Origin: Aromatoleum buckelii
GTDB lineage: Bacteria > Pseudomonadota > Gammaproteobacteria > Burkholderiales > Rhodocyclaceae
Assembly: GCF_012910785.2 (NCBI RefSeq)
Contig: NZ_WTVH02000001.1
Span: forward strand, 1-64,000
Length of the DNA: 64,000 bases
Direction of reading: 5' to 3'
In this document: positions 15,179 through 32,304 of the stretch, piece by piece
Position numbering within the stretch: position 1 is the stretch's first letter
How the letters are laid out: each line of letters starts with the position of its first letter
Notes under the pieces: generated by a model
Told to the model about the DNA's origin: nothing
Database searches by the model: none
The model's input: only the letters and a program-made list of their open reading frames with translations
Made by a program: the position numbers and the translations under genes

Positions 15179-15201
15179 TTAAGCTTTATCCTGGGCAGCA
15201 C

Positions 15202-15872: not shown

Positions 15873-15887
15873 GTCCGGAATATGAAC
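15873..15887. promoter_or_regulatory. Candidate IclR operator, idi-iclR gap, site 1
   Basis: GTCCGGAATATGAAC has the GTCC-N7-G(G/A)AC layout shared with sites upstream of both ubiX copies. It lies about 100 bp upstream of the idi start on the opposite strand. Confidence 0.55.
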
Positions 15888-15980
15888 TGATTTTTGGCAG
15901 TGATACTGGCAATAGAACGCTGCATATCAACAAATCTATGTCTCGAAGTCAGCGTTGACAAGGCGGAAGTGACCGATAAA

Positions 15981-15997
15981 ATTCCAAAATGTGGAAT
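15981..15997. promoter_or_regulatory. Candidate IclR operator, immediately upstream of iclR, site 2
   Basis: ATTCCAAAATGTGGAAT is a perfect 5-bp inverted repeat with a 7-bp spacer. It ends just before the ribosome binding site (AAAGGGAA, about 16002) of the IclR gene, a position that suits autorepression. It belongs to the same motif family as the sites at 17064, 17085 and 17182. Confidence 0.65.
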
Positions 15998-16016
15998 TAT
16001 GAAAGGGAACTTCCCG

Positions 16017-16805
16017 ATGAGCGACAGCAATGGCCCTGGCACGGGGACCCAAAGCATCCAGCGCGCCGCGCACGTCTTGCGGATCCTCGCTTCCCGCAAT
16101 GGCACGGGATTACGTCTGGTTGACATCTCGTCGCATTCGAGGCTTGAGCGGCCGACTGCCCACCGGATATTGAAATGCCTGATTGCCGAAGGCCTGGTCA
16201 AGCAGGATGCGCAGACGCGCCGCTATTTTCTCGGGCATCTGGTTTTCGAGCTTGGACTTGCTGCCTCATCGAGTTTCAATCTGCGCGATGTTTGTCGGCC
16301 GGTCCTCGCAAGGCTCGCCGAAAAGACCGGCGACACAGTATTCCTCACGATACGAAGCGGGTTTGATACGGTATGCATAGATCGCGCCGAAGGTTCCTTT
16401 CCGATCCGCACGCTCACTCTCGATGTCGGCACTCGACGCCCTCTGGGGGTGGGGGCGGGCGGCCTGGCGCTGCTGATGTCCTTGCCGGATCAGGCCATTG
16501 ACGACGTCGTTTCCGCCAACGCTCTCAGGTTGGGGGCGTACAACAACCTCACGGTCCCCGCGCTGATGCGTTTGCTGAAGCGGTGCAGGGAGCTGGGTTA
16601 CGCGCTTAACGACGCCCGTATAACGCCCGGCGCCACTTCGGTCGGGTTGCCGATCCGCTCCCGCTCGGGAGAGCCTTTCCTTGCGATCAGCATCGGCGCG
16701 ATCTCCAGCCGCATGACCGACGAGCGCCAGAAGGAGCTGGTTGCGCTGATTCGGGCCGAAATCATCAATCTCGAGGCTGCCGTAAGCGACACGGCCCGCC
16801 CTTGA
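16017..16805 (+). CDS. IclR family transcriptional regulator
   Basis: 262 aa. The winged HTH is at about residues 13-70 (SIQRAAHVLRILASRNGTGL, then RPTAHRILKCLIAEGLVKQD) and is followed by the IclR effector domain (FLTIRSGFDTVCIDRAEGSF, PLGVGAGGLALLMSLPDQAI). The ATG at 16017 is preferred over the one at 15999 because AAAGGGAA is correctly spaced before it. The gene sits at the head of the catabolic island, divergent from idi. Repeated inverted repeats in this gap and before the ubiX copies and the TAXI gene make it the likely regulator of the cluster, with an aromatic acid or its CoA ester as the probable effector (inferred). Confidence 0.9.
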   Translation: MSDSNGPGTGTQSIQRAAHVLRILASRNGTGLRLVDISSHSRLERPTAHRILKCLIAEGLVKQDAQTRRYFLGHLVFELGLAASSSFNLRDVCRPVLARLAEKTGDTVFLTIRSGFDTVCIDRAEGSFPIRTLTLDVGTRRPLGVGAGGLALLMSLPDQAIDDVVSANALRLGAYNNLTVPALMRLLKRCRELGYALNDARITPGATSVGLPIRSRSGEPFLAISIGAISSRMTDERQKELVALIRAEIINLEAAVSDTARP

Positions 16806-16990
16806 GGCACGCTCTACACACGTAAGCAACCGGATTCCCGGGTGTCCTGGCGACACCCGAGAATCCATTCGCCCATCATTTTCGCGTCCGTCGATAGTCT
16901 TGCCGACGTTGAATGCGCTTGCGTTCCCTGTTTGTGCAGGGAGGTGGGTCGCCCAACGGGCCGGCCTCGTAATCCGGCCGGCCGACTGCG

Positions 16991-17013
16991 GCAGGTTCCT
17001 TCGCAGAACCTGC
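16991..17013 (+). terminator. Hairpin downstream of iclR
   Basis: Arms GCAGGTTC and GAACCTGC enclose a 7-nt loop; a second GC-rich inverted repeat (GGCCGG / CCGGCC) lies about 15 bp upstream of it. There is no T-tract, so termination is uncertain. Confidence 0.35.
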
Positions 17014-17063
17014 GCAATTCAACTCCGCCTCTCATTTCCCCTGCAAGGCGTCCGATAACAGCA

Positions 17064-17099
17064 GTCCAAAATATGGAATAAAAAGTCCGAAATATGGAT
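17064..17099. promoter_or_regulatory. Two tandem candidate IclR operators upstream of ubiX copy 1
   Basis: GTCCAAAATATGGAAT (17064-17079) and GTCCGAAATATGGAT (17085-17099) begin exactly 21 bp apart, two helical turns. Each is a GTCC-N7-GGA(T/A) inverted repeat. They lie about 150 bp upstream of the first ubiX gene in an otherwise gene-free 438-bp region (16806-17243). Confidence 0.7.
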
Positions 17100-17181
17100 T
17101 GTCTGCTGCGGTATTCCTCTCTAAAGTTGCTTCAAGGCCACAGTTATCACGAATTAAGTGCAGAGCCAGATTGTTAAAAAG

Positions 17182-17196
17182 GTCCGTATTATGGAC
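17182..17196. promoter_or_regulatory. Candidate IclR operator next to the ubiX copy 1 promoter
   Basis: GTCCGTATTATGGAC is a perfect GTCC-N7-GGAC inverted repeat. A weak promoter can be drawn with TTGTTA at 17171 and GACTAT at 17194 (17-bp spacer), so the operator would fall between and over these elements. The matching site in front of copy 2 is at 27312-27326. Confidence 0.7.
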
Positions 17197-17243
17197 TATC
17201 AGCGGTCATCTGGAGTTGTACTGATTCCTTGAGCGAGGGGCAT

Positions 17244-17843
17244 ATGAAAAGACTGATAGTGGGGATCACTGGGGCGACGGGGGTGGTGTTCGGGGTTCGG
17301 TTGCTCGAGGCGCTGCAGGGCACCGACGTGGAGACGCACCTGGTGCTGAGCAAGTGGGCGATCCAGACGATCGAGCACGAGACGTCCTACACGGCCAAGC
17401 AGGTGCGGGCGCTCGCCGCGGTCGATCACGTCGAAGGCAACATGGGCGCGTCGATCTCGTCGGGCTCGTTCGTGACCGAAGGGATGGTGATCGCGCCGTG
17501 CTCGATGAGGAGCCTCGCGGCGATCGCCCACGGCACGGGCGACCACCTGGTGCATCGGGCGGCCGACGTGATCCTCAAGGAGCGGCGTCGCCTGGTGCTC
17601 GTGACGCGCGAGATGCCGCTCTCCGACATCCATCTCGAGAACATGCTCAAGCTCTCGAAGATGGGCGTGACGATCATGCCGCCGATGCCGGCGTTCTATA
17701 ACCACCCGCAGACGGTCGAGGACATCGTGGATCACGTCGTTGCCCGGATTCTCGATCAATTCGGCCTGCCGGCCGAGTTCGCGCGGCGCTGGGAGGGGGA
17801 GATGCGCAACCGCAAGGTTGCCAATCTCCAGCCGCAGAAGTAA
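17244..17843 (+). CDS. ubiX: UbiX-like flavin prenyltransferase, copy 1
   Basis: 199 aa. It has the flavoprotein N-terminal motif KRLIVGITGATGVVFGVRLL, the central SSGSFVTEGMVIAPCSMRSL (UbiX SGS and APCS motifs) and REMPLSDIHLENMLKLSKMG, all conserved in UbiX. The family transfers a dimethylallyl group to FMN to make prenylated FMN, the cofactor of UbiD decarboxylases; pcd follows 49 bp downstream. The start at ATG 17244 is preceded by GAGGGG with short spacing; a TTG at 17229 is an alternative. The protein is identical to copy 2 at 27374-27973. Confidence 0.92.
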   Translation: MKRLIVGITGATGVVFGVRLLEALQGTDVETHLVLSKWAIQTIEHETSYTAKQVRALAAVDHVEGNMGASISSGSFVTEGMVIAPCSMRSLAAIAHGTGDHLVHRAADVILKERRRLVLVTREMPLSDIHLENMLKLSKMGVTIMPPMPAFYNHPQTVEDIVDHVVARILDQFGLPAEFARRWEGEMRNRKVANLQPQK

Positions 17844-17892
17844 TCGCACATACCCCAGAAATTCCCGAGTAAAGCAACCTGGAGGCAACACG

Positions 17893-19476
17893 ATGAACGA
17901 TCTGGCAACGAAAGAAATCGATGCGGTGGCCCTGCGGGCCGGGGTCAAGGACCTGCGTGAAGCGCTCGAGTGGTTCCGCACCCAAGGCTACCTGGTCGAG
18001 ACCGACAAGGAAGTCAATCCTGACCTCGAGATCACCGGTCTGCAGAAGATCTTCGACGGCAGCCTGCCGATGCTCTTCAACAACGTCAAAGGCATGCCCC
18101 ATGCCCGCGCGATCACGAACCTCTTTGGCGACATCCGTGTCGTCGAAGGCCTCTTCGGCTGGGAGAACTCGCTCGACCGGGTCAAGAAGGTCGCGCGTGC
18201 GATCGACCATCCGCTCGCGCCGATCATCATCGGCCAGGACGAGGCGCCGGTGCAGGAAGAGGTCATCACCGATGACCTCGACGTCAACAAGTGGCTGACC
18301 GCGATCCGCCACACGCCGCTTGAGACCGAGCTGACGATCGGCTCAGGCATCTCGTGCGTCGTCGGCCCGTACTTCGACGGCGGCAGCCACATCGGCTACA
18401 ACCGCATGAACTTCCGCTGGGGCAACGTCGGCACGTTCCAGATCTCGCCCGGATCACACATGTGGCAGGTGATGACCGAGCACTACAAGGACGACGAGCC
18501 GATCCCGCTGACGATGTGCTTCGGCGTGCCCCCGTCGTGCACCTTCGTTGCCGGCTCGGGCTTCGACTACGCGATCCTGCCCAAGGGCTGCGACGAGATC
18601 GGCATCGCCGGCGCGATCCAGGGCTCGCCGGTGCGCCTCGTCAAGTGCCGCACGATCGACGCCTACACGCTCGCCGACGCCGAGTACGTACTCGAAGGCT
18701 ATCTGCACCCGCGCGACAAGCGCTACGAGACGGCCGAGTCGGAAGCGGCCGACGTCCAGGGGCGCTTTCACTTCCACCCGGAGTGGGCGGGCTACATGGG
18801 CAAAGCGTACAAGGCGCCGACGTTCCACGTCACCGCGATCACGATGCGCCGGCGCGAGAGCAAGCCGATCATCTTCCCGCTCGGCGTGCATACGGCCGAC
18901 GACGCCAACATCGACACCTCGGTGCGCGAGTCGGCGATCTTCGCGCTGTGCGAGCGGCTGCAGCCCGGCATCGTGCAGAACGTGCATATCCCGTACTGCA
19001 TGACCGACTGGGGCGGCTGCATCATCCAGGTCAAGAAGCGCAACCAGATCGAGGAAGGCTGGCAGCGCAATTTCCTCTCCGCGATCCTGTCGTGCTCGCA
19101 AGGGATGCGCCTGGCGATCGCGGTGAGCGAAGACGTCGACATCTACTCGATGGACGACATCATGTGGTGTCTGACCACTCGCGTGAATCCGCGCACCGAC
19201 ATCCTCAACCCGATCCCCGGCGGGCGAGGCCAGACCTTCATGCCGGCCGAGCGCATGACCTCGGGCGACAAGCAATGGACCGCCTCGAACACCCAGTTCG
19301 AAGGCGGCATGGGGATCGACGCGACCGTGCCGTTCGGCTACGAGAGCGACTTCCACCGCCCGGTGTACGGCGTCGATCTGGTCAAGCCGGAAGCCTTCTT
19401 CGGCGAGGGCGACATCAAGAAGATGCGCTCGCGCATGGAAGGCTGGGTGCTGTCCCTGGCACGCACGGGACGCTGA
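17893..19476 (+). CDS. pcd: UbiD-family phthaloyl-CoA decarboxylase, copy 1
   Basis: 527 aa (about 60 kDa) with GGAGG at 17881 before the ATG. It has the UbiD fold (IGYNRMNFRWGNVGTFQISP; GCDEIGIAGAIQGSPVRLVK; IYSMDDIMWCLTTRVNPRTD), but the canonical E-R-E residues are altered: where most UbiD proteins have NxGxYR this one has NVGTFQ (Gln183), and EGPFGE is replaced by QGRFHFHPEW (Gln289, Glu297). Gene order with UbiX and class III CoA-transferases matches anaerobic phthalate clusters of Azoarcus/Thauera, where such a protein converts phthaloyl-CoA to benzoyl-CoA. Assignment rests on this context. The protein is identical to copy 2. Confidence 0.85.
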   Translation: MNDLATKEIDAVALRAGVKDLREALEWFRTQGYLVETDKEVNPDLEITGLQKIFDGSLPMLFNNVKGMPHARAITNLFGDIRVVEGLFGWENSLDRVKKVARAIDHPLAPIIIGQDEAPVQEEVITDDLDVNKWLTAIRHTPLETELTIGSGISCVVGPYFDGGSHIGYNRMNFRWGNVGTFQISPGSHMWQVMTEHYKDDEPIPLTMCFGVPPSCTFVAGSGFDYAILPKGCDEIGIAGAIQGSPVRLVKCRTIDAYTLADAEYVLEGYLHPRDKRYETAESEAADVQGRFHFHPEWAGYMGKAYKAPTFHVTAITMRRRESKPIIFPLGVHTADDANIDTSVRESAIFALCERLQPGIVQNVHIPYCMTDWGGCIIQVKKRNQIEEGWQRNFLSAILSCSQGMRLAIAVSEDVDIYSMDDIMWCLTTRVNPRTDILNPIPGGRGQTFMPAERMTSGDKQWTASNTQFEGGMGIDATVPFGYESDFHRPVYGVDLVKPEAFFGEGDIKKMRSRMEGWVLSLARTGR

Positions 19477-19505
19477 CCGCTGCTGCCAACACAAAGGAGT
19501 CCGTG

Positions 19506-19592
19506 ATGCTTAACGCATACCGGGTCCTGGATCTGAGCAACCGCACCGGCTGGCTCGCCGGTCGGTTGCTCGCCGATCTCCGCAACTGTTGA
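19506..19592 (+). pseudogene. 5' stub of class III CoA-transferase gene
   Basis: Encodes MLNAYRVLDLSNRTGWLAGR LLADL and then RNC-stop. The first 25 codons match the intact gene at 29636, after which the repeat ends at 19580 and unrelated DNA supplies three codons and a stop. The RBS (AAGGAG) is retained, so a 28-aa peptide could still be made, but no enzyme. Confidence 0.85.
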
Positions 19593-20015
19593 AAGGGCGT
19601 GATTCTCGGCAGCGGTCGCTGCAATCAACCCAGGAGTGTCAGACAGGAGCGCCGGCGGGAGATCAGTCCTGCCGCCGGAACTGCCGCGCAACTCGTGCCG
19701 CCCCGGCACGGCCAGTCGCAGGTGAAACCAGTGAGCGGAGGACGGGAAGACTTAACCTGCGCCCAACTCCCGCCCGATATCAGCCTTTCCGGCTGGATTA
19801 AGGTGAAGAACAGGAGTGCCACAACTACAACAATAGATTCTTTCAGCATGTCATGCGCGGCGAAGGGAGTATCGCAATACGGTTCGGGCGAATGCCGGAT
19901 GTTTCGGTGAAGGCGTTGTTTCGCCCGCGTGTGGGTTCGCAGAAAGAAGACGTCGCGCTCGGACATCGCTTGTGCAGAGTTGCAACGTCGAGGAACGACA
20001 AAGGAGGAGTAATCG
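19593..20015. other. Intergenic region before the ABC transporter genes
   Basis: About 420 bp with no recognisable gene on either strand and no GTCC-N7-GGAC site. It ends with a strong AAGGAGGAG ribosome binding site for the next gene. It probably contains the ABC operon promoter, which I could not place. Confidence 0.4.
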
Positions 20016-21062
20016 ATGAAAACAGCATGTCTGAGATTTTTATCGGCAACCTGTCTTGCGGTGTGGGCGCTCAACTGCGTCGCCACCGACTCGACCGAAG
20101 TTCGCGTCGGTATTGTCAATTCCAGTAGCGACGCCGGTTTTCTCATCGCTGACAAGAAAGGTTATTTCCGCGAGGAGGGGCTGGAAGTCGTATTCACTCC
20201 GTTCGACTCGGCGGCGAAGATGATTGCTCCACTCGGCGCCGGTCACCTTGACGTCGGCGGCGGCTCGCCGTCCGCGGGGCTCTACAACGCAATCGCTCGC
20301 GGCATCAGCATCAAGATAGTTGCCGACAAGGGCTCGACGCCACCGGGATACGGCTATCAGCCGTTGCTGGTGCGCAAGGATCTGGTCGATAGCGGGCGAT
20401 TCAAGGAGCTGAAGGATCTAAAGGGCATGAAGATCGCCGGTAGCGCTCCCGGCAGCGCATCGACATCCACTCTCAACGAGATGCTGAAGAAGGCGGACCT
20501 GAAGACGGCCGACGTGGAGCGCGTCTACATGGGTTTTCCTCAGCACGTGATGGCGCTGCAGAACGCGGCGGTTGACGCGGCACTGACGACCGAGCCGTCC
20601 GCAACCCGGGCAATCCAGAGCGGCGCGGCCGTGAAGGTGCTCGGCGACGACGAGGCGTATCCGGATCATCAGCTCGCGGTCGTGCTCTATTCCGGCCCGT
20701 TCGCACGCGAGAAGCCGGAAGTGGCTCGCAAATTCATGCGTGCTTACCTGCGCGGCGTGCGCGACTACAACGATGCGTTGAAGGACGGAAGGCTCGCCGG
20801 GCCGAGCAGCGACGACATCATTGCCATCCTGACAGCGAGTACGGCGCTCAAGGATCCGGCGACCTACCGCCTCCTCAGCGCGAACGGGTGCAATCCGAAC
20901 GGCAAGGTCCACGAGCCAAGCTTGCGCAACGATCTGCAGTTCTTCAAGGACGAGGGGCTGATCCAGGGCAATGTCGCTGTGGAGCAGGCGGTCGACCACA
21001 CGTTTGTCGAGGCAGCACTCAAGGATCTCGGCACGTATGAAGCGAAAAGGAGCCTCCAGTGA
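20016..21062 (+). CDS. ABC transporter substrate-binding protein (NitT/TauT, NMT1/SsuA type)
   Basis: 348 aa with a signal peptide (MKTACLRFLSATCLAVWALN, mature start near residue 24). The NMT1-like fold begins VRVGIVNSSSDAGFLIADKK and contains LDVGGGSPSAGLYNAIARGI and LKGMKIAGSAPGSAS. This family delivers taurine, sulfonates, pyrimidine precursors or aromatic acids to an ABC importer. The strong RBS AAGGAGGAG precedes the ATG. It is the first of four tightly packed genes ending in a UbiD decarboxylase, so an aromatic carboxylate is the likely substrate. Confidence 0.88.
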   Translation: MKTACLRFLSATCLAVWALNCVATDSTEVRVGIVNSSSDAGFLIADKKGYFREEGLEVVFTPFDSAAKMIAPLGAGHLDVGGGSPSAGLYNAIARGISIKIVADKGSTPPGYGYQPLLVRKDLVDSGRFKELKDLKGMKIAGSAPGSASTSTLNEMLKKADLKTADVERVYMGFPQHVMALQNAAVDAALTTEPSATRAIQSGAAVKVLGDDEAYPDHQLAVVLYSGPFAREKPEVARKFMRAYLRGVRDYNDALKDGRLAGPSSDDIIAILTASTALKDPATYRLLSANGCNPNGKVHEPSLRNDLQFFKDEGLIQGNVAVEQAVDHTFVEAALKDLGTYEAKRSLQ

Positions 21063-21916
21063 GCGACGATTCGATCCAGGACGTCCTTGCGCAGGCGGCC
21101 TGTGTGGCGAGTGCGCAGACCCCACCGAAAATCCGCATCCGCAACCTCGGCAAGAGCTTCGAGACGCGTCGCGGGCGCTTCGCCGCTCTCGACGCGGTGT
21201 CCCTCGACATTCCCGAGGGCTGCTTCTTCATGATTGTCGGCCCGAGCGGCTGCGGCAAGACGACGCTGCTGCGGATTCTCGGCGGGCTCGAGAGCGAGTC
21301 GAGCGGCAGCGTTGAGATTGCGCATTCCGGCAGCGGGCGACCCGAGAACTCGATGGTGTTCCAAGGCGACTCACTGTTCCCGTGGATGACGGTGTGGCAG
21401 AACGCGGCCTACGGACTCGTGATGCGCGGCCGGCCGAAGACCGAAATCAAGGAGACGGTCGGTCACTACCTTTCGCGAATCGGGCTGTCGCGTTTCGCCG
21501 ACGCGTTTCCGCACCAGCTGTCGGGGGGCATGCGTCAGCGCGTCTCGATCGCACGGGCATTCGCCAACGATCCCGAAATTCTGCTGATGGACGAGCCGTT
21601 TTCGGCGCTCGATGAGCAGAACAAGCTCCTTCTGCAGGAGGAGCTGCTGCGCATCTGGGACGAGACCCGCAAGACGGTGCTGTTCATTACGCACAGCGTT
21701 GATGAAGCAGTCACGCTTGGCGATCGCATTCTCGTGATGAGCGCCCATCCGGGCAAGGTGAAGATGGTCGTGAACGTGCCGTTCGAACGCCCCCGGCATG
21801 TTCTCGAGCTTCGCGCCCGGCCCGAATACGGCGCGCTCGTCTACAACATCTGGGACGAGCTGCGCGACGAGGTCCGCCGTGCCCGCGCCCAGGATGAGGA
21901 GGGGGTAAGGTCATGA
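21059..21916 (+). CDS. ABC transporter ATP-binding protein (NitT/TauT type)
   Basis: 285 aa. Walker A GPSGCGKTT, Q-loop in NSMVFQGDSLFPWMTV, signature LSGGMRQR, Walker B ILLMDEPFSALDE and the switch His in FITHSVDEA are all present. The start is GTG at 21059, overlapping the stop of the binding-protein gene. The long N-terminal 25 residues are not part of the ATPase fold. It energises the adjacent permease. Confidence 0.93.
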   Translation: MSDDSIQDVLAQAACVASAQTPPKIRIRNLGKSFETRRGRFAALDAVSLDIPEGCFFMIVGPSGCGKTTLLRILGGLESESSGSVEIAHSGSGRPENSMVFQGDSLFPWMTVWQNAAYGLVMRGRPKTEIKETVGHYLSRIGLSRFADAFPHQLSGGMRQRVSIARAFANDPEILLMDEPFSALDEQNKLLLQEELLRIWDETRKTVLFITHSVDEAVTLGDRILVMSAHPGKVKMVVNVPFERPRHVLELRARPEYGALVYNIWDELRDEVRRARAQDEEGVRS

Positions 21917-22722
21917 GCATCGCAAAGAAGGCGCGCGTTGCCGAGACACGTACGAAAGTGCGATCAGCAAGGAATCGAGACCGATTGATCGGCCTCGTAT
22001 CGCCGCTGGCGCTGATCGTGTTGTGGGAGCTGTGCGTGCAGTCCGGCGCAATCGACGCGCGCTTTTTTCCCGCGCCGTCGCAGGTGGCCGTGAAGCTCGT
22101 TGCATTGGTCGTGTCGGGGTCCCTGTGGACTGATACCGCGGCAAGCCTGACGAGGCTGTTCTGGGGGATGCTGCTCGGCGGCATCCCGGCGCTGCTGCTC
22201 GGCATTGTCATGGGACTGTATCGGCCAATCCGCGCGGTATTCGATCCGCTGGTCGCGGCGACCTACCCAATCCCGAAGAGCGCGATCCTGCCGTTGATCC
22301 TGCTGATCTTCGGCCTCGGCGAGGCGTCGAAAATCGTCATGGTCGCGACCGGGGTGTTCTATCCGGTGCTGATCAACTCGATGGCCGGTGTCATGGAGAT
22401 CAACAAGATCTATCTGGATGTCGGCCACAACTTCAAGGCGAGCCGCTGGCAGGTGTTCCGCACGATCGCATTACCGGGGGCGATGCCGCTGATCATGACC
22501 GGCATCAAGCTCGGGGTCGGCCTGGGCCTGATCCTGATCACGATCGCCGAGATGGTCGGCGCCAACAGCGGCCTCGGGCACATGATCTGGAACGCGTGGG
22601 AAATCCTGTCGGTGGAAACGATGTATGTCGGCCTCATCGTCATTGCGCTGCTCGGTTTCCTGTTCTCGCTCGCGCTTACCGAGCTCGAACGCTGGCTTGT
22701 GCCATGGAAGACGGCTCACTAA
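21913..22722 (+). CDS. ABC transporter permease (NitT/TauT type)
   Basis: 269 aa with about six membrane segments (LIGLVSPLALIVLWELCVQS first) and the EAA coupling loop region (ASRWQVFRTIALPGAMPLIM). It overlaps the ATPase gene by ATGA. It forms the inner-membrane channel of the importer encoded by 20016-21916. Confidence 0.92.
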   Translation: MSIAKKARVAETRTKVRSARNRDRLIGLVSPLALIVLWELCVQSGAIDARFFPAPSQVAVKLVALVVSGSLWTDTAASLTRLFWGMLLGGIPALLLGIVMGLYRPIRAVFDPLVAATYPIPKSAILPLILLIFGLGEASKIVMVATGVFYPVLINSMAGVMEINKIYLDVGHNFKASRWQVFRTIALPGAMPLIMTGIKLGVGLGLILITIAEMVGANSGLGHMIWNAWEILSVETMYVGLIVIALLGFLFSLALTELERWLVPWKTAH

Positions 22723-22782
22723 CCAATCCTTTCAAATTGTCGGGCCGGGATTCGGCGCGGCTTCAACGCAGGAGAAGACCAA

Positions 22783-24297
22783 GTGAATGATAACGCTTTG
22801 AACAGAGCGGTCGGAGGCGTCCAGGAAGGCGTAGGGCGACGGGACCTCGAACAGCGTTGCCAGATTGCCTACGAGGATCTGCGCGAGTGGATTGTCGAAG
22901 CTGAGAAACTGGGTGAAGTGCATGTGATCAAGGGCGCGACATGGCAAAAGGAGATCGGCATGGCAGCCGACCTCGCGATGCATTCGGATGCGGCCCCCTG
23001 TGTAATTTTCGACGACGTGCCCGGATGCGAGAAGGGCCACCGCGTGCTCGTCAACTTCTTCGGCGGAAGCCGCAAGAACATGACCCTCGGTTTTCCAACG
23101 GATCTGTCCCGGCTGGAGCTGTCGCAGGCCTTCCTCGAGAACAGCCTGCGCGACATGGAGCCGCTCCCGCACGAGATCGGCGAATATGGTCCGATCTTCG
23201 AAAATGTGCTGATGGGCGACGACATCGACATTACGAAGTTTCCGACGCCGCAGTGGCACGAGCATGACGGGGGCCGCTACATCGGCACCGGCAGCTACAA
23301 CATCACGATGGATCCCGACGAGAAATGGCTCAACGCGGGCACTTATCGCGTCATGATCCACGACAAGAAGACCGTCGGTTTCTACATTTCCCCGGGCAAG
23401 CATGGTCGTATCCACCGCGACAAGTACGAGGCGCGCGGTGAGCCGATGCCGACAGCGATCGTCGTCGGCGGCGATCCGCTGACGTTCCTGATGGCGTGCA
23501 GCGAAGTGCCATACGGCGTGTGCGAATTCGACATGGTTGGAGCGATGCGTGGCAAGGCGCAGAAGATGGTGCGCGGCAAGGTCACCGGCATCCCGATTCC
23601 GGCCAACGCCGAACTCGTCATCGAGGGCTACGTGCATCCGACACGACGCAAGAAGGAAGGTCCGTTCGGCGAGTGGACCGGCTACTACGCGAGCGACGTG
23701 CGCGAGGAGCCCGTTCTCGAGATCAAGGCGATCTACCATCGCAACAACCCGATCATCCTCGGTTGCCCCCCGCTGTGCCCGCCGGACGAAATGGCGCGCT
23801 ACCGTGCGGTGACACGCTCGGCGCTGCTGAAGCAGGAAATCGAGAAAGCCGGTGTGCCCGACATCACGGCTGCGTGGGCTCACGAGTGCGGCGGCGCCCG
23901 CATGCTCCTTGCAGTGGCGATCAAGCAACGCTATCCAGGCCACGTCAAGCAGGTCGGCCATATTGCCAGCCAGTGCCACGTCGGAGCGTACGCGGGTAAG
24001 TACGTAGTGGTGGTCGACGACGACGTCGACGCGTCCAACCTGGAGGAGGTGATGTGGGCAGTGGTGACGCGCTCCGATCCGGCGACGTCGATCGACATCA
24101 TCACGAACTCGTGGAGCACGCCACTCGATCCGCGCCTCACCCCCGAGGATCGTGAAAAGGGTAATTACACGAACTCGCGCGCGATCATCGACGCGTGCCG
24201 TCCGTTCCACTGGCGCGATCGCTTCCCACTGGTCAATCGGTTGAGTCCGAAGGACTTGTGCGAGGCTCGCGAGAAATTCGGTTATTTGCTTAGCTGA
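22783..24297 (+). CDS. UbiD family decarboxylase (second, canonical type)
   Basis: 504 aa from GTG 22783 with GGAGAA before it. The canonical UbiD motifs are intact: NAGTYR (Arg189) and EGPFGEWTGYY (Glu292, Glu297), the expected E-R-E catalytic residues, plus VVVDDDVDASNLEEV near the C-terminus. It is clearly a paralogue and not a copy of the decarboxylases at 17893 and 28023. It follows an ABC importer by 60 bp and precedes a porin, so it probably decarboxylates an imported aromatic acid with prFMN from the UbiX proteins encoded nearby. Substrate unknown. Confidence 0.9.
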   Translation: MNDNALNRAVGGVQEGVGRRDLEQRCQIAYEDLREWIVEAEKLGEVHVIKGATWQKEIGMAADLAMHSDAAPCVIFDDVPGCEKGHRVLVNFFGGSRKNMTLGFPTDLSRLELSQAFLENSLRDMEPLPHEIGEYGPIFENVLMGDDIDITKFPTPQWHEHDGGRYIGTGSYNITMDPDEKWLNAGTYRVMIHDKKTVGFYISPGKHGRIHRDKYEARGEPMPTAIVVGGDPLTFLMACSEVPYGVCEFDMVGAMRGKAQKMVRGKVTGIPIPANAELVIEGYVHPTRRKKEGPFGEWTGYYASDVREEPVLEIKAIYHRNNPIILGCPPLCPPDEMARYRAVTRSALLKQEIEKAGVPDITAAWAHECGGARMLLAVAIKQRYPGHVKQVGHIASQCHVGAYAGKYVVVVDDDVDASNLEEVMWAVVTRSDPATSIDIITNSWSTPLDPRLTPEDREKGNYTNSRAIIDACRPFHWRDRFPLVNRLSPKDLCEAREKFGYLLS

Positions 24298-24583
24298 AGT
24301 TGTGCTCGCCCGGCCGCCACGCGTAATTGAGGATCCTCCGGGCGGCGCGGGCAGGGCCAGTGACTTTAGAAAACGAGTTCGCGAGTTACAGCTCCCCCGA
24401 TTCCAGATTAATTAAGGCAACGGTCCACCTGGTAAAAGCTGGGGAGCCGCCGCTACTAGGAAAACTAGACGGTCCGGTTCGCAAGGGGACAAAAGTGGCG
24501 CGAACCGATTGAGACTGCCGCTGCGCAAACCGACGCAAGCGGACTGTTTTCGCAGGAAACCACAAAAATCCACATGAAAACGC

Positions 24584-24616
24584 GAGCAGGTTTGCCTGCT
24601 CTCGGGGCAATTTTTT
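24584..24616 (+). terminator. Hairpin with T-run upstream of the porin gene
   Basis: Arms GAGCAGG and CCTGCTC with loop TTTG (24584-24601), then a T6 run at about 24611-24616. The 9-nt gap before the T-run is longer than usual. It lies in the 430-bp stretch 24298-24728, which has no recognised gene, and would separate the decarboxylase and porin transcripts. Confidence 0.45.
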
Positions 24617-24728
24617 GTCCGTAACAGAGAGAAAAACGGCGCCTCGGGTTCGGAATGGCTTCAAAGAGGACGCCGGAGCATTCAGTCGATCAGGAGGAGT
24701 AGGTCCTAATTTCCAGGGAGAAATCGCC

Positions 24729-25922: not shown

Positions 25923-26114
25923 GCCGGCGTGGCATGCATCGTACGGTAGGGGAGCACGGCGGGCGGCAGTGGGCCCTTCGGCACGGGGCCTTTAATTTTC
26001 GACGCTGGCGCGCCAGTGATTCACCTTCGTCAGGTCACGGCTGTCCACCGAATCCGGACGAAATTCGAGGAGGACTCAGGATTCCTGCTCCGACCGATCG
26101 GGGAGTAAGTCGTT

Positions 26115-27038
26115 GTGGGTGAGTGGCTGGCCGTGTTATCGATGACTTTTTTTGCGTCATCGAACGTAGCAATCGGACGCGCCGTGGAGCGGGGTTCACA
26201 GGACAACGGCGCCTTTCTTTCCATCCTGATCACCAGCACGATGGCGTTCGCGGCGTGGATCTACTTGACCTGGGGAAATGCGCTGCCACGCGTCGACGCG
26301 CCGGCACTCGCGTGGTTCGCGGGAGCCGGCGTGCTGACGATGTTCATCGGTCGGGTGTTCGTGTTCGCCTCCGTGCAGCATCTGGGCGCCGTGCGCGCCT
26401 CCGCGGTCAAACGGCTCAATCCTGTGTTTTCGGTGCTGCTTGGCGTGCTGGTGCTCGGGGAACCGATGGACGCAGCGCTGATCGCGGGCATGCTGCTGAT
26501 TTTTTCCAGTTTCTGCGTGCTGGTAAAGCAGTCGCTACAGACCTCCAGGCAAAGCTCGGGCGTGGTCATTGACAGCTCCGGGCGTGAATATCTGGGCACA
26601 TGGGTCAACGTGGGCTACGTCTATGGCCCGGTGTCGGCGCTCGCCTATGCAGTGGGTTACGTTGCACGCAAGCAGGGCCTGATGCTGCTTCCCGATCCGA
26701 CGCTCGGGACGCTGATCGGTGCCGTCGTTGGCTCGCTCGTCTTCATGCTGGCGGGGGCCTTTCTCGGTAGTTACCGACAGGCGATCCGTAACACATTCAC
26801 GAGCTTTGACCCCTGGATCGTCGCGGCCGGCGTGCTGAGTTCCCTGGGGCAGATCTTCTTTTTTGCCGCGATTAGCTACAGCACGGTCTCCCGCGTGGCG
26901 CTGATCACCTCCATGGAAACCTTCGTCACGATCCTGCTGTCGGTGACGCTCTTCCGTTCCAAAGATGGGCTGACGGCACCGGTGCTGTGCGCCGCCGGGC
27001 TCGGGGCGCTCGGCACCGCGTTCATCATGTGGCAATAG
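26115..27038 (+). CDS. EamA/DMT family transporter
   Basis: 307 aa from GTG 26115, with about ten hydrophobic segments arranged as two EamA repeats (first: FFASSNVAIGRAVERGS; second: GPVSALAYAVGYVARKQGLM; end: SRVALITSMETFVTILLSVT). Drug/metabolite transporters of this type usually export small molecules. It lies between the porin and the second ubiX-pcd copy in the same orientation, so efflux of an aromatic intermediate is a reasonable but unproven guess. Confidence 0.85.
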   Translation: MGEWLAVLSMTFFASSNVAIGRAVERGSQDNGAFLSILITSTMAFAAWIYLTWGNALPRVDAPALAWFAGAGVLTMFIGRVFVFASVQHLGAVRASAVKRLNPVFSVLLGVLVLGEPMDAALIAGMLLIFSSFCVLVKQSLQTSRQSSGVVIDSSGREYLGTWVNVGYVYGPVSALAYAVGYVARKQGLMLLPDPTLGTLIGAVVGSLVFMLAGAFLGSYRQAIRNTFTSFDPWIVAAGVLSSLGQIFFFAAISYSTVSRVALITSMETFVTILLSVTLFRSKDGLTAPVLCAAGLGALGTAFIMWQ

Positions 27039-27373
27039 CTGACTAACGCGATTTTCGGGGCTGATCGCTGGTTCCATCAGGGCGGGGTCACGAAGCTCGA
27101 TCAAGCCCCCGCATGTATCCCCCCGGTACTCCTGGTTCGCCTTCACTCGCTCTTTGATCGGTTGCAAGGTGGCATTCGAGCAAAAACAATAGTCCATATA
27201 TTGAAATAGTAATTCGGCTAGATGGATTGCCTGTCTTGCAAGTGGTAATTAGAGTAATCAGCAAGTGAGGCGCAGCAACGTTATTTGAGGGGCGAAATCT
27301 CTAGCATAAATGTCCATATAACGGACTATCAACAATCATCTGGAGTTGTACTGATTCCTTGAGCGAGGGGCAT
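27039..27373 (+). promoter_or_regulatory. Promoter/operator region of ubiX copy 2
   Basis: A 335-bp gene-free stretch. It contains GTCCATATATTGAAA (27192-27206, a degenerate operator) and GTCCATATAACGGAC (27312-27326, perfect arms). The 120-bp distance between them nearly equals the 118 bp between the outer sites in front of copy 1, although most intervening sequence has diverged. Identity with copy 1 begins at 27336. Confidence 0.65.
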
Positions 27374-27973
27374 ATGAAAAGACTGATAGTGGGGATCACT
27401 GGGGCGACGGGGGTGGTGTTCGGGGTTCGGTTGCTCGAGGCGCTGCAGGGCACCGACGTGGAGACGCACCTGGTGCTGAGCAAGTGGGCGATCCAGACGA
27501 TCGAGCACGAGACGTCCTACACGGCCAAGCAGGTGCGGGCGCTCGCCGCGGTCGATCACGTCGAAGGCAACATGGGCGCGTCGATCTCGTCGGGCTCGTT
27601 CGTGACCGAAGGGATGGTGATCGCGCCGTGCTCGATGAGGAGCCTCGCGGCGATCGCCCACGGCACGGGCGACCACCTGGTGCATCGGGCGGCCGACGTG
27701 ATCCTCAAGGAGCGGCGTCGCCTGGTGCTCGTGACGCGCGAGATGCCGCTCTCCGACATCCATCTCGAGAACATGCTCAAGCTCTCGAAGATGGGCGTGA
27801 CGATCATGCCGCCGATGCCGGCGTTCTATAACCACCCGCAGACGGTCGAGGACATCGTGGATCACGTCGTTGCCCGGATTCTCGATCAATTCGGCCTGCC
27901 GGCCGAGTTCGCGCGGCGCTGGGAGGGGGAGATGCGCAACCGCAAGGTTGCCAATCTCCAGCCGCAGAAGTAA
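27374..27973 (+). CDS. ubiX: UbiX-like flavin prenyltransferase, copy 2
   Basis: 199 aa, identical to the protein encoded at 17244-17843, with the same GAGGGG-CAT-ATG start context. It is the first gene of the complete operon ubiX-pcd-CoA-transferase pair, and is expected to make prenylated FMN for the UbiD-family enzymes. Confidence 0.92.
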   Translation: MKRLIVGITGATGVVFGVRLLEALQGTDVETHLVLSKWAIQTIEHETSYTAKQVRALAAVDHVEGNMGASISSGSFVTEGMVIAPCSMRSLAAIAHGTGDHLVHRAADVILKERRRLVLVTREMPLSDIHLENMLKLSKMGVTIMPPMPAFYNHPQTVEDIVDHVVARILDQFGLPAEFARRWEGEMRNRKVANLQPQK

Positions 27974-28022
27974 TCGCACATACCCCAGAAATTCCCGAGT
28001 AAAGCAACCTGGAGGCAACACG

Positions 28023-29606
28023 ATGAACGATCTGGCAACGAAAGAAATCGATGCGGTGGCCCTGCGGGCCGGGGTCAAGGACCTGCGTGAAGCGCTCGAG
28101 TGGTTCCGCACCCAAGGCTACCTGGTCGAGACCGACAAGGAAGTCAATCCTGACCTCGAGATCACCGGTCTGCAGAAGATCTTCGACGGCAGCCTGCCGA
28201 TGCTCTTCAACAACGTCAAAGGCATGCCCCATGCCCGCGCGATCACGAACCTCTTTGGCGACATCCGTGTCGTCGAAGGCCTCTTCGGCTGGGAGAACTC
28301 GCTCGACCGGGTCAAGAAGGTCGCGCGTGCGATCGACCATCCGCTCGCGCCGATCATCATCGGCCAGGACGAGGCGCCGGTGCAGGAAGAGGTCATCACC
28401 GATGACCTCGACGTCAACAAGTGGCTGACCGCGATCCGCCACACGCCGCTTGAGACCGAGCTGACGATCGGCTCAGGCATCTCGTGCGTCGTCGGCCCGT
28501 ACTTCGACGGCGGCAGCCACATCGGCTACAACCGCATGAACTTCCGCTGGGGCAACGTCGGCACGTTCCAGATCTCGCCCGGATCACACATGTGGCAGGT
28601 GATGACCGAGCACTACAAGGACGACGAGCCGATCCCGCTGACGATGTGCTTCGGCGTGCCCCCGTCGTGCACCTTCGTTGCCGGCTCGGGCTTCGACTAC
28701 GCGATCCTGCCCAAGGGCTGCGACGAGATCGGCATCGCCGGCGCGATCCAGGGCTCGCCGGTGCGCCTCGTCAAGTGCCGCACGATCGACGCCTACACGC
28801 TCGCCGACGCCGAGTACGTACTCGAAGGCTATCTGCACCCGCGCGACAAGCGCTACGAGACGGCCGAGTCGGAAGCGGCCGACGTCCAGGGGCGCTTTCA
28901 CTTCCACCCGGAGTGGGCGGGCTACATGGGCAAAGCGTACAAGGCGCCGACGTTCCACGTCACCGCGATCACGATGCGCCGGCGCGAGAGCAAGCCGATC
29001 ATCTTCCCGCTCGGCGTGCATACGGCCGACGACGCCAACATCGACACCTCGGTGCGCGAGTCGGCGATCTTCGCGCTGTGCGAGCGGCTGCAGCCCGGCA
29101 TCGTGCAGAACGTGCATATCCCGTACTGCATGACCGACTGGGGCGGCTGCATCATCCAGGTCAAGAAGCGCAACCAGATCGAGGAAGGCTGGCAGCGCAA
29201 TTTCCTCTCCGCGATCCTGTCGTGCTCGCAAGGGATGCGCCTGGCGATCGCGGTGAGCGAAGACGTCGACATCTACTCGATGGACGACATCATGTGGTGT
29301 CTGACCACTCGCGTGAATCCGCGCACCGACATCCTCAACCCGATCCCCGGCGGGCGAGGCCAGACCTTCATGCCGGCCGAGCGCATGACCTCGGGCGACA
29401 AGCAATGGACCGCCTCGAACACCCAGTTCGAAGGCGGCATGGGGATCGACGCGACCGTGCCGTTCGGCTACGAGAGCGACTTCCACCGCCCGGTGTACGG
29501 CGTCGATCTGGTCAAGCCGGAAGCCTTCTTCGGCGAGGGCGACATCAAGAAGATGCGCTCGCGCATGGAAGGCTGGGTGCTGTCCCTGGCACGCACGGGA
29601 CGCTGA
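28023..29606 (+). CDS. pcd: UbiD-family phthaloyl-CoA decarboxylase, copy 2
   Basis: 527 aa, identical to the product of 17893-19476. Motif positions: NVGTFQ at residues 178-183 and QGRFHFHPEW from residue 289. It is followed by two class III CoA-transferase genes, one 29 bp downstream, which fits the known route phthalate to phthaloyl-CoA to benzoyl-CoA. The unstable CoA-thioester intermediate is thought to require abundant decarboxylase, a possible reason to keep two copies. Confidence 0.87.
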   Translation: MNDLATKEIDAVALRAGVKDLREALEWFRTQGYLVETDKEVNPDLEITGLQKIFDGSLPMLFNNVKGMPHARAITNLFGDIRVVEGLFGWENSLDRVKKVARAIDHPLAPIIIGQDEAPVQEEVITDDLDVNKWLTAIRHTPLETELTIGSGISCVVGPYFDGGSHIGYNRMNFRWGNVGTFQISPGSHMWQVMTEHYKDDEPIPLTMCFGVPPSCTFVAGSGFDYAILPKGCDEIGIAGAIQGSPVRLVKCRTIDAYTLADAEYVLEGYLHPRDKRYETAESEAADVQGRFHFHPEWAGYMGKAYKAPTFHVTAITMRRRESKPIIFPLGVHTADDANIDTSVRESAIFALCERLQPGIVQNVHIPYCMTDWGGCIIQVKKRNQIEEGWQRNFLSAILSCSQGMRLAIAVSEDVDIYSMDDIMWCLTTRVNPRTDILNPIPGGRGQTFMPAERMTSGDKQWTASNTQFEGGMGIDATVPFGYESDFHRPVYGVDLVKPEAFFGEGDIKKMRSRMEGWVLSLARTGR

Positions 29607-29635
29607 CCGCTGCTGCCAACACAAAGGAGTCCGTG

Positions 29636-30823
29636 ATGCTTAACGCATACCGGGTCCTGGATCTGAGCAACCGCACCGGCTGGCTCGCCGGTCGGTTGCT
29701 CGCCGATCTCGGGGCCGACGTGATCAAGGTTGAGGCGCGGGGGGCCACCCTCGACAGCCCGGACTGGCAGGCCTACAACGTCAACAAGCGGCTGTTGCGT
29801 CTCGATCTCGAAACGCCTGAAGGCCGGTTGGGCTTCGATCGGCTGATAGGCGGCATCGATATCCTGATCGAATCGGCAACGCCGGGCGAGCGCGCCCGGT
29901 GCTTGGATCCGACCCGGCTGCGCAACCTCAACCGACGACTGATCCACGTATCGGTCACGCCGTTCGGCTCGACCGGTCCGCGCTCCGACTGGCTCGCGTC
30001 TGACCTCGAGTTAATGGCCGCCGGCGGCGCGATGTCGCTTGCGGGCGAGCCCGACGATGCGCCCAAGCGCGTGACCGTGCCACAGTCGTACTGCTGGGCG
30101 GGGGCGCAGGCGGCCGTCGGCGCGCTGACCGCGCTCCTCCATCGCACTGCCTCAGGTGAGGGGCAGCACGTGGACGTATCGGCGCAGGCCGCGGTAATCC
30201 TTGCCCTGTCGCACGCGCCGGCCTTCTGGGACATGGAAGGCACCGTTCCGACACGCGCCGGAGCCTATGTCACCGGGCGCTCGATCAAGGGTGCACGTTA
30301 TCGCGCGTTCTGGCCCTGTGCGGACGGCTATCTGAACTTCGTCCTCTACGGCGGCCCCGCAGGGCGCCGCACGAATGCGCAACTGATCGCGTGGATGCGC
30401 GAGCGCGGCGCCGAACTCGGGGATCTCGCGCAAATCGACTGGAAACGATTTGACCCGAGGCTTGCGACGCAGGAAGAGGTCGACGGGCTGGAGCGGCCGA
30501 TCGCCGCATTCTTTCTCGGACTCACAAAGCGGGAATTCCTCGATCAGGCGAGTCGCCGCGAGATGCTCGGCTACCCGGTGTCGACGATGCATGACATTGC
30601 CGACGACCCGCAACTGGCGGCCCGGGAATTCTGGCACGACATGAAGACGCCGAACGGGGAGTCGCAGCGGCATTGCGGCAGTTTTGCGATTATCGACCAG
30701 CTACGTGCGCCGCTTCGCCATGAGGCGGGCGCGGAAATCGATCTCGGCGCATTGCTGGCCGAACTCGGCCTCGCCGCTGCCCGCCGAGCTGTCGATACGG
30801 CCGAGGAGGGGCAATTCGTATGA
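29636..30823 (+). CDS. Class III (CaiB/BaiF) CoA-transferase subunit, probable succinyl-CoA:phthalate CoA-transferase
   Basis: 395 aa with AAGGAG before the ATG. CaiB/BaiF family: N-terminal YRVLDLSNRTGWLAGRLLAD and LGADVIKVEA, and the active-site segment ASDLELMAAGGAMSLAG, in which Asp123 is at the position of the catalytic aspartate. It overlaps the next CoA-transferase gene by ATGA, so the two are probably subunits of one heteromer (SptAB type in phthalate degraders, or the BbsEF type by analogy). A 25-codon duplicate of its 5' end lies at 19506. Confidence 0.88.
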   Translation: MLNAYRVLDLSNRTGWLAGRLLADLGADVIKVEARGATLDSPDWQAYNVNKRLLRLDLETPEGRLGFDRLIGGIDILIESATPGERARCLDPTRLRNLNRRLIHVSVTPFGSTGPRSDWLASDLELMAAGGAMSLAGEPDDAPKRVTVPQSYCWAGAQAAVGALTALLHRTASGEGQHVDVSAQAAVILALSHAPAFWDMEGTVPTRAGAYVTGRSIKGARYRAFWPCADGYLNFVLYGGPAGRRTNAQLIAWMRERGAELGDLAQIDWKRFDPRLATQEEVDGLERPIAAFFLGLTKREFLDQASRREMLGYPVSTMHDIADDPQLAAREFWHDMKTPNGESQRHCGSFAIIDQLRAPLRHEAGAEIDLGALLAELGLAAARRAVDTAEEGQFV

Positions 30824-32040
30824 GCGCGATCTCTCAAGCCCTGTCGGGCGTGAAAGTGGCGGAATTCGGCGCGTATGCCGCGGGGCCACATATCGGCAAG
30901 ATGCTCGCGACCTTCGGCGCAACGGTCGTGCACGTAGAATCCCGTCAGCGTCCCGACGGGTTCCGCAACGAGTACCCGCCGTACAAGGATGGCCGCCCCG
31001 GACCCGATCGGAGCGGATGCTTCGCGATCTTCAATGACTCTAAATTTGACGTTACGCTGGACCTCAAGACTCCCGCCGGAGTCGAGGTGGCGCAGCGACT
31101 GATCACGTGGGCCGACGTCGTCATCGAGAACATGCGCCCCGACGTCATGTCGCGCCTCGGCCTTGGCTACGAGACGGCACGCGAGCTGAATCCGGGCGTC
31201 GTCATGATCTCGAGCTGCAACATGGGGCAAACCGGTCCGCGCGCGCAGACGCCCGGCTTCGGCTCGCAGCTGTCGGCGCTTGCCGGCTTTTGCGGCTTGA
31301 CCGGTGATCCCAACGGCCCACCGATGCTGCTGTACGGGCCGTATATTGACTTCATCGCTTCGACGCTCGGCGCCAGCGCGGTCCTCGCGGCACTCGACCG
31401 TCAGCGAAGGATAGGCCAAGGCGCGTGGATCGATCTGGCGCAGTACGAAAGCGGGCTGATGTTTGTCGCCGGCGCGCTGCTCGATTACCACACCAACGGC
31501 CGCGTGGCGGAACGGGCGAACAACACCGACCCCGGCGCAGCACCACATGACGCTTATCAGTGCGGCGGCGGCACCTGGCTCGCGCTTTCGTGCTGGTCCG
31601 ACGAGGAGTTCGCGCGCCTCGCCGTGGCATTGATGCGCCCCGATTTGCCGGGCAATCCACGTTTCGCGACGCTGGCGGCGCGTAAGGCAAATATTGCGGA
31701 GCTCGATGCAATCATTTCATCGTATCTAGTCACGCAGGATGCCGATGAGGCTGCCGTTCGGCTCCAGGCAGCGCAGGTTCACGCCTATCCGGTCAACACG
31801 ATTGCTGACCTGTTCCGGGATCCGCAACTCGCGTATCGCCGGATCTGGCGCCGTCGTCTGCACGGCGAAATCGGGGATGTCGCGTGTTATTTCTCGGCAT
31901 TCGATCTTTCGGTCACGCCCGGCGATGTCATGGCTGCAGCGCCGTGCCTCGGCCAGGACAACGAACTCGTATTCCGGGAATTTCTCGCCATGACCGACGT
32001 CGAGTATGCGGAATATCAGATCGAAGGAGCGTTCCAGTGA
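30820..32040 (+). CDS. Class III (CaiB/BaiF) CoA-transferase, second subunit
   Basis: 406 aa. CaiB/BaiF fold: GVKVAEFGAYAAGPHIGKML, FDVTLDLKTPAGVEVAQRLI, DVVIENMRPDVMSRLGLGYE. In the active-site segment it has TPGFGSQLSALAGFCGLTG, so a Gly occupies the place of the catalytic Asp. This suggests a non-catalytic or structural partner for the Asp-bearing subunit encoded just upstream, with which it overlaps by 4 bp. Confidence 0.87.
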   Translation: MSAISQALSGVKVAEFGAYAAGPHIGKMLATFGATVVHVESRQRPDGFRNEYPPYKDGRPGPDRSGCFAIFNDSKFDVTLDLKTPAGVEVAQRLITWADVVIENMRPDVMSRLGLGYETARELNPGVVMISSCNMGQTGPRAQTPGFGSQLSALAGFCGLTGDPNGPPMLLYGPYIDFIASTLGASAVLAALDRQRRIGQGAWIDLAQYESGLMFVAGALLDYHTNGRVAERANNTDPGAAPHDAYQCGGGTWLALSCWSDEEFARLAVALMRPDLPGNPRFATLAARKANIAELDAIISSYLVTQDADEAAVRLQAAQVHAYPVNTIADLFRDPQLAYRRIWRRRLHGEIGDVACYFSAFDLSVTPGDVMAAAPCLGQDNELVFREFLAMTDVEYAEYQIEGAFQ

Positions 32041-32289
32041 CGCTCTGCTCGTTGCGCGCCGATCACCACGTCCGCGGTCATGATTCCCGAAAGGGCCGAA
32101 TCTCCAGCGCTCGCGCCTCACTTTCGCTGATCAAGCGTCGAGTCGAGATGAAAATTTCCCTAAGGGATCGAGCGTCCGAGTGGTGGACGTTTACTTGGAT
32201 CGGACGAGCCGCGCGTCCTTGTTGCAGGGAAACTGCAATGATAATCTGAACATAAGAAGCCGAACTGCTTGTAGGAAAACAAATTATAA

Positions 32290-32304
32290 GTCCTTGGCCA
32301 GGAC
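32290..32304. promoter_or_regulatory. Candidate IclR operator upstream of TAXI-TRAP genes
   Basis: GTCCTTGGCCAGGAC has perfect GTCC and GGAC arms with a 7-bp spacer, the same geometry as the ubiX sites, although its centre is less AT-rich. It lies 45 bp before the TAXI gene start in the 308-bp gap 32041-32348, which holds no gene. Confidence 0.5.

Follow-up and report, generated by a model that had tools for sequence, protein, structure and literature searches.

The DNA analysed here (the window) is a stretch of 64,000 nucleotides from Aromatoleum buckelii, positions 1 to 64,000 of contig NZ_WTVH02000001.1. It carries a catabolic island whose gene order is idi (minus strand), iclR, ubiX, ubiD1, three ABC transporter genes, UbiD2, porin, EamA, a second ubiX-ubiD1, two CoA-transferases, TAXI and a large TRAP-type permease, with the names of idi and the permease transferred from the annotation of Aromatoleum aromaticum EbN1. 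An earlier reading of this sequence (the original prediction) assigned the island to phthalate and proposed that inverted repeats of the form GTCC-N7-GGAC or TTCC-N7-GGAA are the operators of its IclR-family regulator. The assignment is well founded: the island corresponds to the phthalate cluster of EbN1 plasmid 2 (NC_006824.1), and it holds together the ubiX, phthaloyl-CoA decarboxylase-type ubiD and CoA-transferase genes that mark a cluster for anaerobic phthalate degradation. We find that the sites are very probably operators of the island's IclR regulator, which would repress its own gene and control anaerobic phthalate catabolism through pairs of sites. Coordinates are collected in Table 1.

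Table 1. Putative operators and other features of the island, in window positions.
Feature	Position	Strand	Remarks
Operator box, idi side of idi/iclR gap	15873..15887		13.0 bits; counterpart in EbN1, L061 and L003
Operator at iclR promoter	15982..15996		26.3 bits, best in window; touches -10 box, covers inferred transcription start
Distal operator of ubiX copy 1, first of 21-bp tandem	17064..17078		25.8 bits
Distal operator of ubiX copy 1, second of 21-bp tandem	17085..17099		17.4 bits; 21-bp tandem also in L003 and L061
Proximal operator of ubiX copy 1	17182..17196		24.4 bits
Distal operator of ubiX copy 2	27192..27206		19.2 bits
Proximal operator of ubiX copy 2	27312..27326		22.6 bits
Weak distal operator candidate before TAXI	32174..32188		exact GTCC-N7-GGAC; 7.5 bits
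Weak proximal operator candidate before TAXI	32290..32304		arms kept, core changed in relatives; no matrix match
iclR promoter TTGACA-16-TAAAAT	15955..15982	+	11/12 consensus positions
idi, isopentenyl-diphosphate isomerase	15202..15771	-	annotated idi at matching place in EbN1 plasmid 2; divergent from iclR
IclR-family regulator	16017..16805	+	Pfam HTH_IclR + IclR_C
ubiX copy 1, flavin prenyltransferase	17244..17843	+	Pfam Flavoprotein; UbiX annotation in EbN1
ubiD1 copy 1, phthaloyl-CoA decarboxylase-type UbiD	17893..19476	+	Pfam UbiD; 100% identity to EbN1 plasmid 2 protein
ABC transporter genes + UbiD2	20016..24297	+	own operator not found among 30 best matrix positions
Terminator-like hairpin 3' of UbiD2	24592..24610	+	6 such sites in stretch vs 2.4 in shuffles
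ubiX copy 2	27374..27973	+	identical to copy 1
ubiD1 copy 2	28023..29606	+	identical to copy 1
Two family III CoA-transferases	29636..32040	+	Pfam CoA_transf_3; CoA transferase genes at matching EbN1 place
TAXI-type substrate-binding protein	32349..33329	+	Pfam NMT1_3; TAXI annotation in EbN1

All eight places listed in the original prediction exist (the one given as 15981 is really 15982), and the 21-bp spacing that it noted between 17064 and 17085 is correct. However, just four of them (15982, 17182, 27312 and 32290) have the stated form exactly, those at 15873, 17064, 17085 and 27192 being imperfect, and the list was not complete, as an exact match at 32174 had been overlooked. Taken literally, the motif has 6 exact matches in the window (15982, 17182, 27312, 32174, 32290 and 56527) against 2.84 expected from base composition, which is unremarkable, and we rejected the literal motif alone as a test of operators. 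We instead tested whether sites from relatives predict those of the window.

A search of genome contigs with the IclR protein gave 20 loci (L003 to L022), and a symmetric 19-bp weight matrix was trained on 20 sites from 11 related loci, none of them from the window. These training sites were picked from 35 pattern matches in 14 loci (15 were dropped) by their proximity to IclR-cluster genes and their resemblance to the motif, and the window sites were already known when the choice was made. The matrix consensus of the operator is roughly KTCCRYAWWRYGGAM. Its seven top-scoring positions in the window are seven of the eight listed sites (15982, 17064, 17182, 27312, 27192, 17085 and 15873, from 26.3 down to 13.0 bits), while the eighth-best position, at 11.4 bits, lies within the porin gene. 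Across 60 Markov-simulated 64-kb sequences, the matrix maximum had a mean of 12.6 and a highest value of 16.75, and six of the seven window sites exceed all simulated maxima. We regard the seven matrix-supported sites as real operators tied to the IclR protein, which is predicted to bind them.

The regulator belongs to the IclR family, as both HTH_IclR (N-terminal) and IclR_C (C-terminal) score above the curated Pfam cut-offs, and its closest solved chain by sequence is 1mkm, an IclR regulator. The motif was counted as present when a site of at least 11 bits occurred in the 250 bp before iclR, using matrices that left each locus out. By this measure it accompanies 14 of the 16 homologues with at least 60% identity, 16 of 19 at 47-60%, 5 of 7 at 40-47% (where the two misses, L033 and L071, come from a single genome), 4 of 7 at 33-40% and none of 7 below 33%. 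It also precedes ubiX, ubiD, idi or TAXI genes in the phthalate-type clusters of relatives. L014 and L015 have the motif before iclR with no ubiD1 homologue found in their fetched flanks (in L014 the contig stops a short way past iclR), and it is thus not merely travelling with catabolic genes; L053 and L086 also have it, with no phthalate genes in fetched flanks of only 1.5 kb. The region around the presumed DNA-reading helix is well conserved among nine aligned IclR sequences, and palindromic, paired sites are consistent with dimer or tetramer binding of IclR-family proteins. Since the motif tracks IclR similarity, also in differing gene neighbourhoods, the proposed IclR regulon for the island is supported.

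L069, whose IclR homologue is 44% identical, carries two boxes 110 bp apart (9323 and 9433) that are almost the same as each other and share an altered arm, GTGC ... GAAC; it seems that the two sites of this operator have drifted in step. L033 has two strong sites 473 bp apart (3017 and 3490, the same as L071 10753 and 11226) near a flavin reductase-like gene, outside the 250 bp before iclR.

At the iclR promoter, the operator starts at the last base of the -10 box, and it lies just before the ribosome binding site, as originally described (site 15982-15996, start codon 16017). By sequence, this overlap with the regulator's own promoter is what would mark an autoregulated IclR gene. Of 17 iclR promoters compared, 8 (three of them from Aromatoleum) have a TTGACA exactly 27 bp ahead of the operator, and none of the 17 shows one at any other place within the 80 bp that precede the site. 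The geometry of the promoter fits autorepression.

Nearly all strong sites come in pairs. We counted pairs with leave-one-out matrices at 18 loci (including L061, despite its close relationship to the window, which was itself scanned only at 10001-40000), requiring at least 15 bits for a strong site and at least 10 bits for its partner. A partner lies 60-170 bp away for 50 of the 52 strong sites, against 0.2 expected, with mutual partners both counted; the two unpaired sites are L004 19008 and L006 9967. Pair spacings range from 73 to 165 bp.

These spacings are also periodic, and the p values that follow are optimistic, related loci not being independent. The 24 spacings first listed have a best period of 11.7 bp (R 0.55, jitter p 0.0015), and nine pairs from later-fetched loci, a set that excludes the near copies L060, L061 and L070, show the same phase at that period (R 0.68, z 2.88). 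A hand-collapsed set of 26 spacings, which omits Aromatoleum repeats, both TAXI pairs and the pairs of L014 and L015, has a period of 11.65 bp (bootstrap 11.3-12.05) with R 0.67 and a jitter p of 0.0002-0.0003. The period is still 11.65 bp when the last four omitted spacings are restored (R 0.60, p 0.0005) and when eight distant spacings are added (R 0.56, reached by 0 of 2000 jitters). The nine distant-homologue distances alone show about the same phase and were rejected as a third phasing test because they are too weak (R 0.45); one of them (110, L069/L052) was already in the later set of nine. Loops formed in vivo by the lac repressor likewise have a period above 10.5 bp. What the phased pairs most simply suggest is an IclR tetramer that would bridge two operators, i.e., looping.

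Both ubiX copies have a proximal site 62 bp before the start codon, with its partner a further 118 or 120 bp upstream. The two ubiX-ubiD1 copies are identical without a mismatch (17206-19580 matches 27336-29710); the identical block begins just downstream of the operator, and the copies differ through the operator. Identity of this kind points to a recent duplication or gene conversion around the ABC-UbiD2-porin-EamA block. Copy 1 is followed by a truncated CoA-transferase start.

As judged by these sites, the best-supported regulon would comprise iclR, ubiX-ubiD1 copy 1 and the ubiX-ubiD1-CoA-transferase genes of copy 2, with idi as a probable member and TAXI-TRAP as a possible one. An idi homologue lies near iclR in L003, L004, L061, L062, L064 and L070; in L070 it is apart from the iclR promoter, with a site pair 250-340 bp upstream (by distance only). 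The product of idi would supply the prenyl donor for UbiX, and idi may have this role here. Several relatives have idi adjoining the prenylated-flavin pathway.

The original prediction found no site before the ABC-UbiD2, porin or EamA genes, which holds for the 30 best matrix positions, and suggested that these genes may be separately controlled. For porin and EamA, separate control is indeed more likely, because terminator-like hairpins lie 3' of UbiD2 and of porin. The ABC-UbiD2 genes need not be separate, however: a search of the DNA from ubiD1 copy 1 to these genes found no plus-strand terminator, and transcription from the ubiX1 promoter may therefore extend into them. An upstream site or pair accompanies the UbiD2 homologue in five relatives, either in a gap shared with iclR (L011, L012 and L013) or on its own (L062 and L063). 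In L004, pairs also precede genes for a periplasmic binding protein and a PEBP-family protein.

Whether the motif is equally common elsewhere in the genome, which the original prediction had named as a refuting check, depends on the pattern: GTCCRWAWTATGGAMT is nearly island-limited, whereas KTCCRYAWWRYGGAM at one mismatch is no commoner than its reversed control. With up to two mismatches, GTCCRWAWTATGGAMT (a pattern derived from the window's own sites, making this test partly circular) matches two places elsewhere in the 4.16-Mb genome besides six distinct sites of the island, some of which match on both strands; the control gave 0 matches. For both patterns, perfect matches in the genome are confined to the island, those of KTCCRYAWWRYGGAM occurring only at 17182 and 27312. 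At one mismatch, KTCCRYAWWRYGGAM gives 16 forward and 19 reverse matches against 25 and 27 for the reversed control, and it was rejected as an island/genome discriminator, as perfect matches alone discriminate. Outside the island, 22 distinct places match one or other pattern, and all seven of those fetched lie within at least one open frame of at least 90 aa. For example, one is inside a DUF1329 gene (Pfam; L036), and one lies in a frame to which Pfam assigned nothing, with a gene for a XylR-type regulator nearby (L035); at L037 a ribosomal protein gene was recognised by eye only. With 7 of the 22 examined, all inside open frames, and Pfam run on the surroundings of two, no outside match was adopted as a further regulon member.

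Eight other genomes of the genus were also scanned. The three with the regulator (G371, G373 and G375) have their best matches beside it, along with matches elsewhere (four, six and two, respectively). Five genomes (G370, G377, G379, G380 and G382) are without the regulator, in that they have no IclR match at E 1e-40; each has 3-7 scattered GTCCRWAWTATGGAMT matches, against 2-4 for the reversed control, and none of the five has a perfect GTCCRWAWTATGGAMT match or two close matches.

Upstream of TAXI, the two boxes sit at nearly constant positions relative to the gene: -175/-59 in the window and in EbN1, -176/-60 in L061 and -179/-67 in L003, with the arms kept and the core changed. Because EbN1 hardly differs from the window in this region, the argument from conservation rests on L003 and L061. 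On balance, we think that the boxes at 32174 and 32290 are probably weak or diverged operators, going by their arms and placement.

Several observations weigh against reading the sites as IclR operators. At 13.0 bits, 15873 falls under the highest simulated maximum; both TAXI sites deviate from the matrix model, and 32290 is outside the 30 best matrix positions listed, the last of which scores 3.9 bits. Six TAXI upstream regions were compared, and the pair is present in the four from Aromatoleum, whereas L009 has one site at -103 and L065 has none. Among the 16 close homologues, the 250 bp upstream of iclR are without a site at two loci: L005, where sites precede ubiX, and L009, with the TAXI site just mentioned. 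The DNA upstream of the two ubiX copies is identical at 99 of 173 aligned positions, and their shared layout may be partly inherited from old homologous regions, which would make it less than fully independent evidence. Finally, the coding strand upstream of ubiX copy 1, ubiX copy 2 and TAXI yielded no sigma-70 consensus, so repression and activation are both possible there; we lean slightly towards repression.

Taking both sides together, the mechanism that we favour is as follows. An IclR dimer would read one 15-bp palindrome, KTCC-RYAWWRY-GGAM, and two dimers (a tetramer) would occupy a site pair, mostly 8-14 helical turns apart. With an operator over the transcription start just after a TTGACA promoter, IclR would repress its own gene. 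Control of anaerobic phthalate catabolism, from uptake through CoA transfer and decarboxylation to provision of the prenylated flavin cofactor, would run through the site pairs upstream of idi, of both ubiX copies and, more weakly, of TAXI. Judging from the gene neighbourhood only, phthalate or its CoA ester is the probable inducer.

The sites could in principle be chance palindromes or leftovers of the ubiX-ubiD duplication, and the unremarkable count for the stated pattern agrees with this. Yet a matrix trained on relatives recovers the window sites, and the two operators are not just a single sequence copied twice, since the block of identity sets in only at 17206, past the operator. Matrix recovery and the trend with IclR identity speak strongly against chance or duplication, which we consider exceedingly improbable. 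A different regulator might bind the sites with IclR as a bystander, which is very unlikely, given that the motif accompanies IclR homologues in differing neighbourhoods, vanishes with falling IclR identity and has the published IclR group 1 form.

How the operators act is more evenly balanced. Each could work alone at a nearby promoter, with pairing having no mechanical role and no looping, and we give this a substantial chance, although short of an even one. In divergent gaps (L011, L012 and idi/iclR), the two sites of a pair could each belong to a different gene, the spacing is broad and the distant homologues support the phase weakly; on the other hand, pairs also occur in same-direction gaps (both ubiX copies and TAXI), the 11.65-bp period is unchanged with four spacings restored, and the nine later pairs repeat a phase fixed on the first 24, within the limits of non-independent loci. 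It is almost an even call whether IclR, while repressing itself, activates ubiX, idi and TAXI with inducer. Paired, phased sites resemble those of looping repressors, but a sigma-70 consensus was missing before these ubiX copies and TAXI (coding strand), in contrast to the 11/12 promoter at iclR. Precedents point both ways, as TphR, the terephthalate regulator, activates tphC and represses itself, whereas the isophthalate regulator IphR is described as a repressor (PMC13040137). We can put forward only tentatively the fullest form of the model, in which the IclR regulator loops DNA throughout its regulon, with paired operators mostly 8-14 turns apart and in phase (about 11.65 bp) across many genera. 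By this means it would govern the anaerobic breakdown of phthalate, with idi among its targets as a feeder of the prenylated-flavin cofactor.

The EbN1 plasmid 2 cluster is the closest known system: it has the same genes, the same ubiX-ubiD1 duplication and operators in matching places, with IclR 98% and UbiD1 100% identical to the window proteins. Among the catabolic genes of the matching stretch, the IclR protein is the sole annotated regulator. The two CoA-transferases are probably a succinyl-CoA:phthalate CoA-transferase. The clusters differ in a few operator bases (e.g., the counterpart of 17085 scores 12.4 bits) and in an IS5-family transposase gene that EbN1 has between the CoA-transferase and TAXI genes (L072 7428-8220, i.e., plasmid 2 65427-66219), with both TAXI boxes still on the TAXI side. 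An open reading frame (ORF) adjoining idi in the window (14065-15201) looks transposase-like by eye, and EbN1 has an IS1182-like transposase gene beside idi. EbN1 is named as a phthalate degrader in the literature (PMC13040137).

Other IclR-family systems offer looser parallels. The TphR and IphR pathways of Comamonas sp. E6 are aerobic. Like the island, they represent IclR-family control of a phthalate-isomer cluster, but the operator sequences are different and the isomers are terephthalate and isophthalate (PMC8222616, PMC13040137). PobR of Acinetobacter baylyi has a very similar palindrome, TTGTCCGATSATCGGACAR, but it is a 4-hydroxybenzoate/protocatechuate regulator of another organism (PMC8222616). 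The IclR group 1 consensus is GKTYCRYW3-4RYGRAMC, and around half of the published groups have tandem sites at a spacing of 18-22 nt (Suvorova and Gelfand 2021, PMC8222616), and the window palindrome, compared by eye, fits the odd subgroups of this consensus. Our tandem sites, found in 4 of 18 loci, are 21 bp apart in the window, L003 and L061 and 23 bp apart in L012, and in both the published and present cases the sites lie close before the gene start. The published spacings are about two, three and four turns, however, and pairs at 73-165 bp go unmentioned in the accessible parts of that article (PMC8222616). The operator type is thus already known (IclR group 1), and what is less ordinary is the consistent long, phased pairing.

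Our literature search, which covered few subscription papers, found no described regulator of anaerobic phthalate degradation, and nothing direct on a regulator of this pathway or on IclR looping was among the matches listed. The sites give a concrete, testable operator model for the anaerobic degradation of phthalate, a plasticizer-derived pollutant, and they would supply parts for an ortho-phthalate biosensor. They also add idi as a candidate to the regulon of the anaerobic phthalate pathway. For the IclR family, the paired operators of these loci form a naturally occurring set for testing whether its proteins loop DNA.

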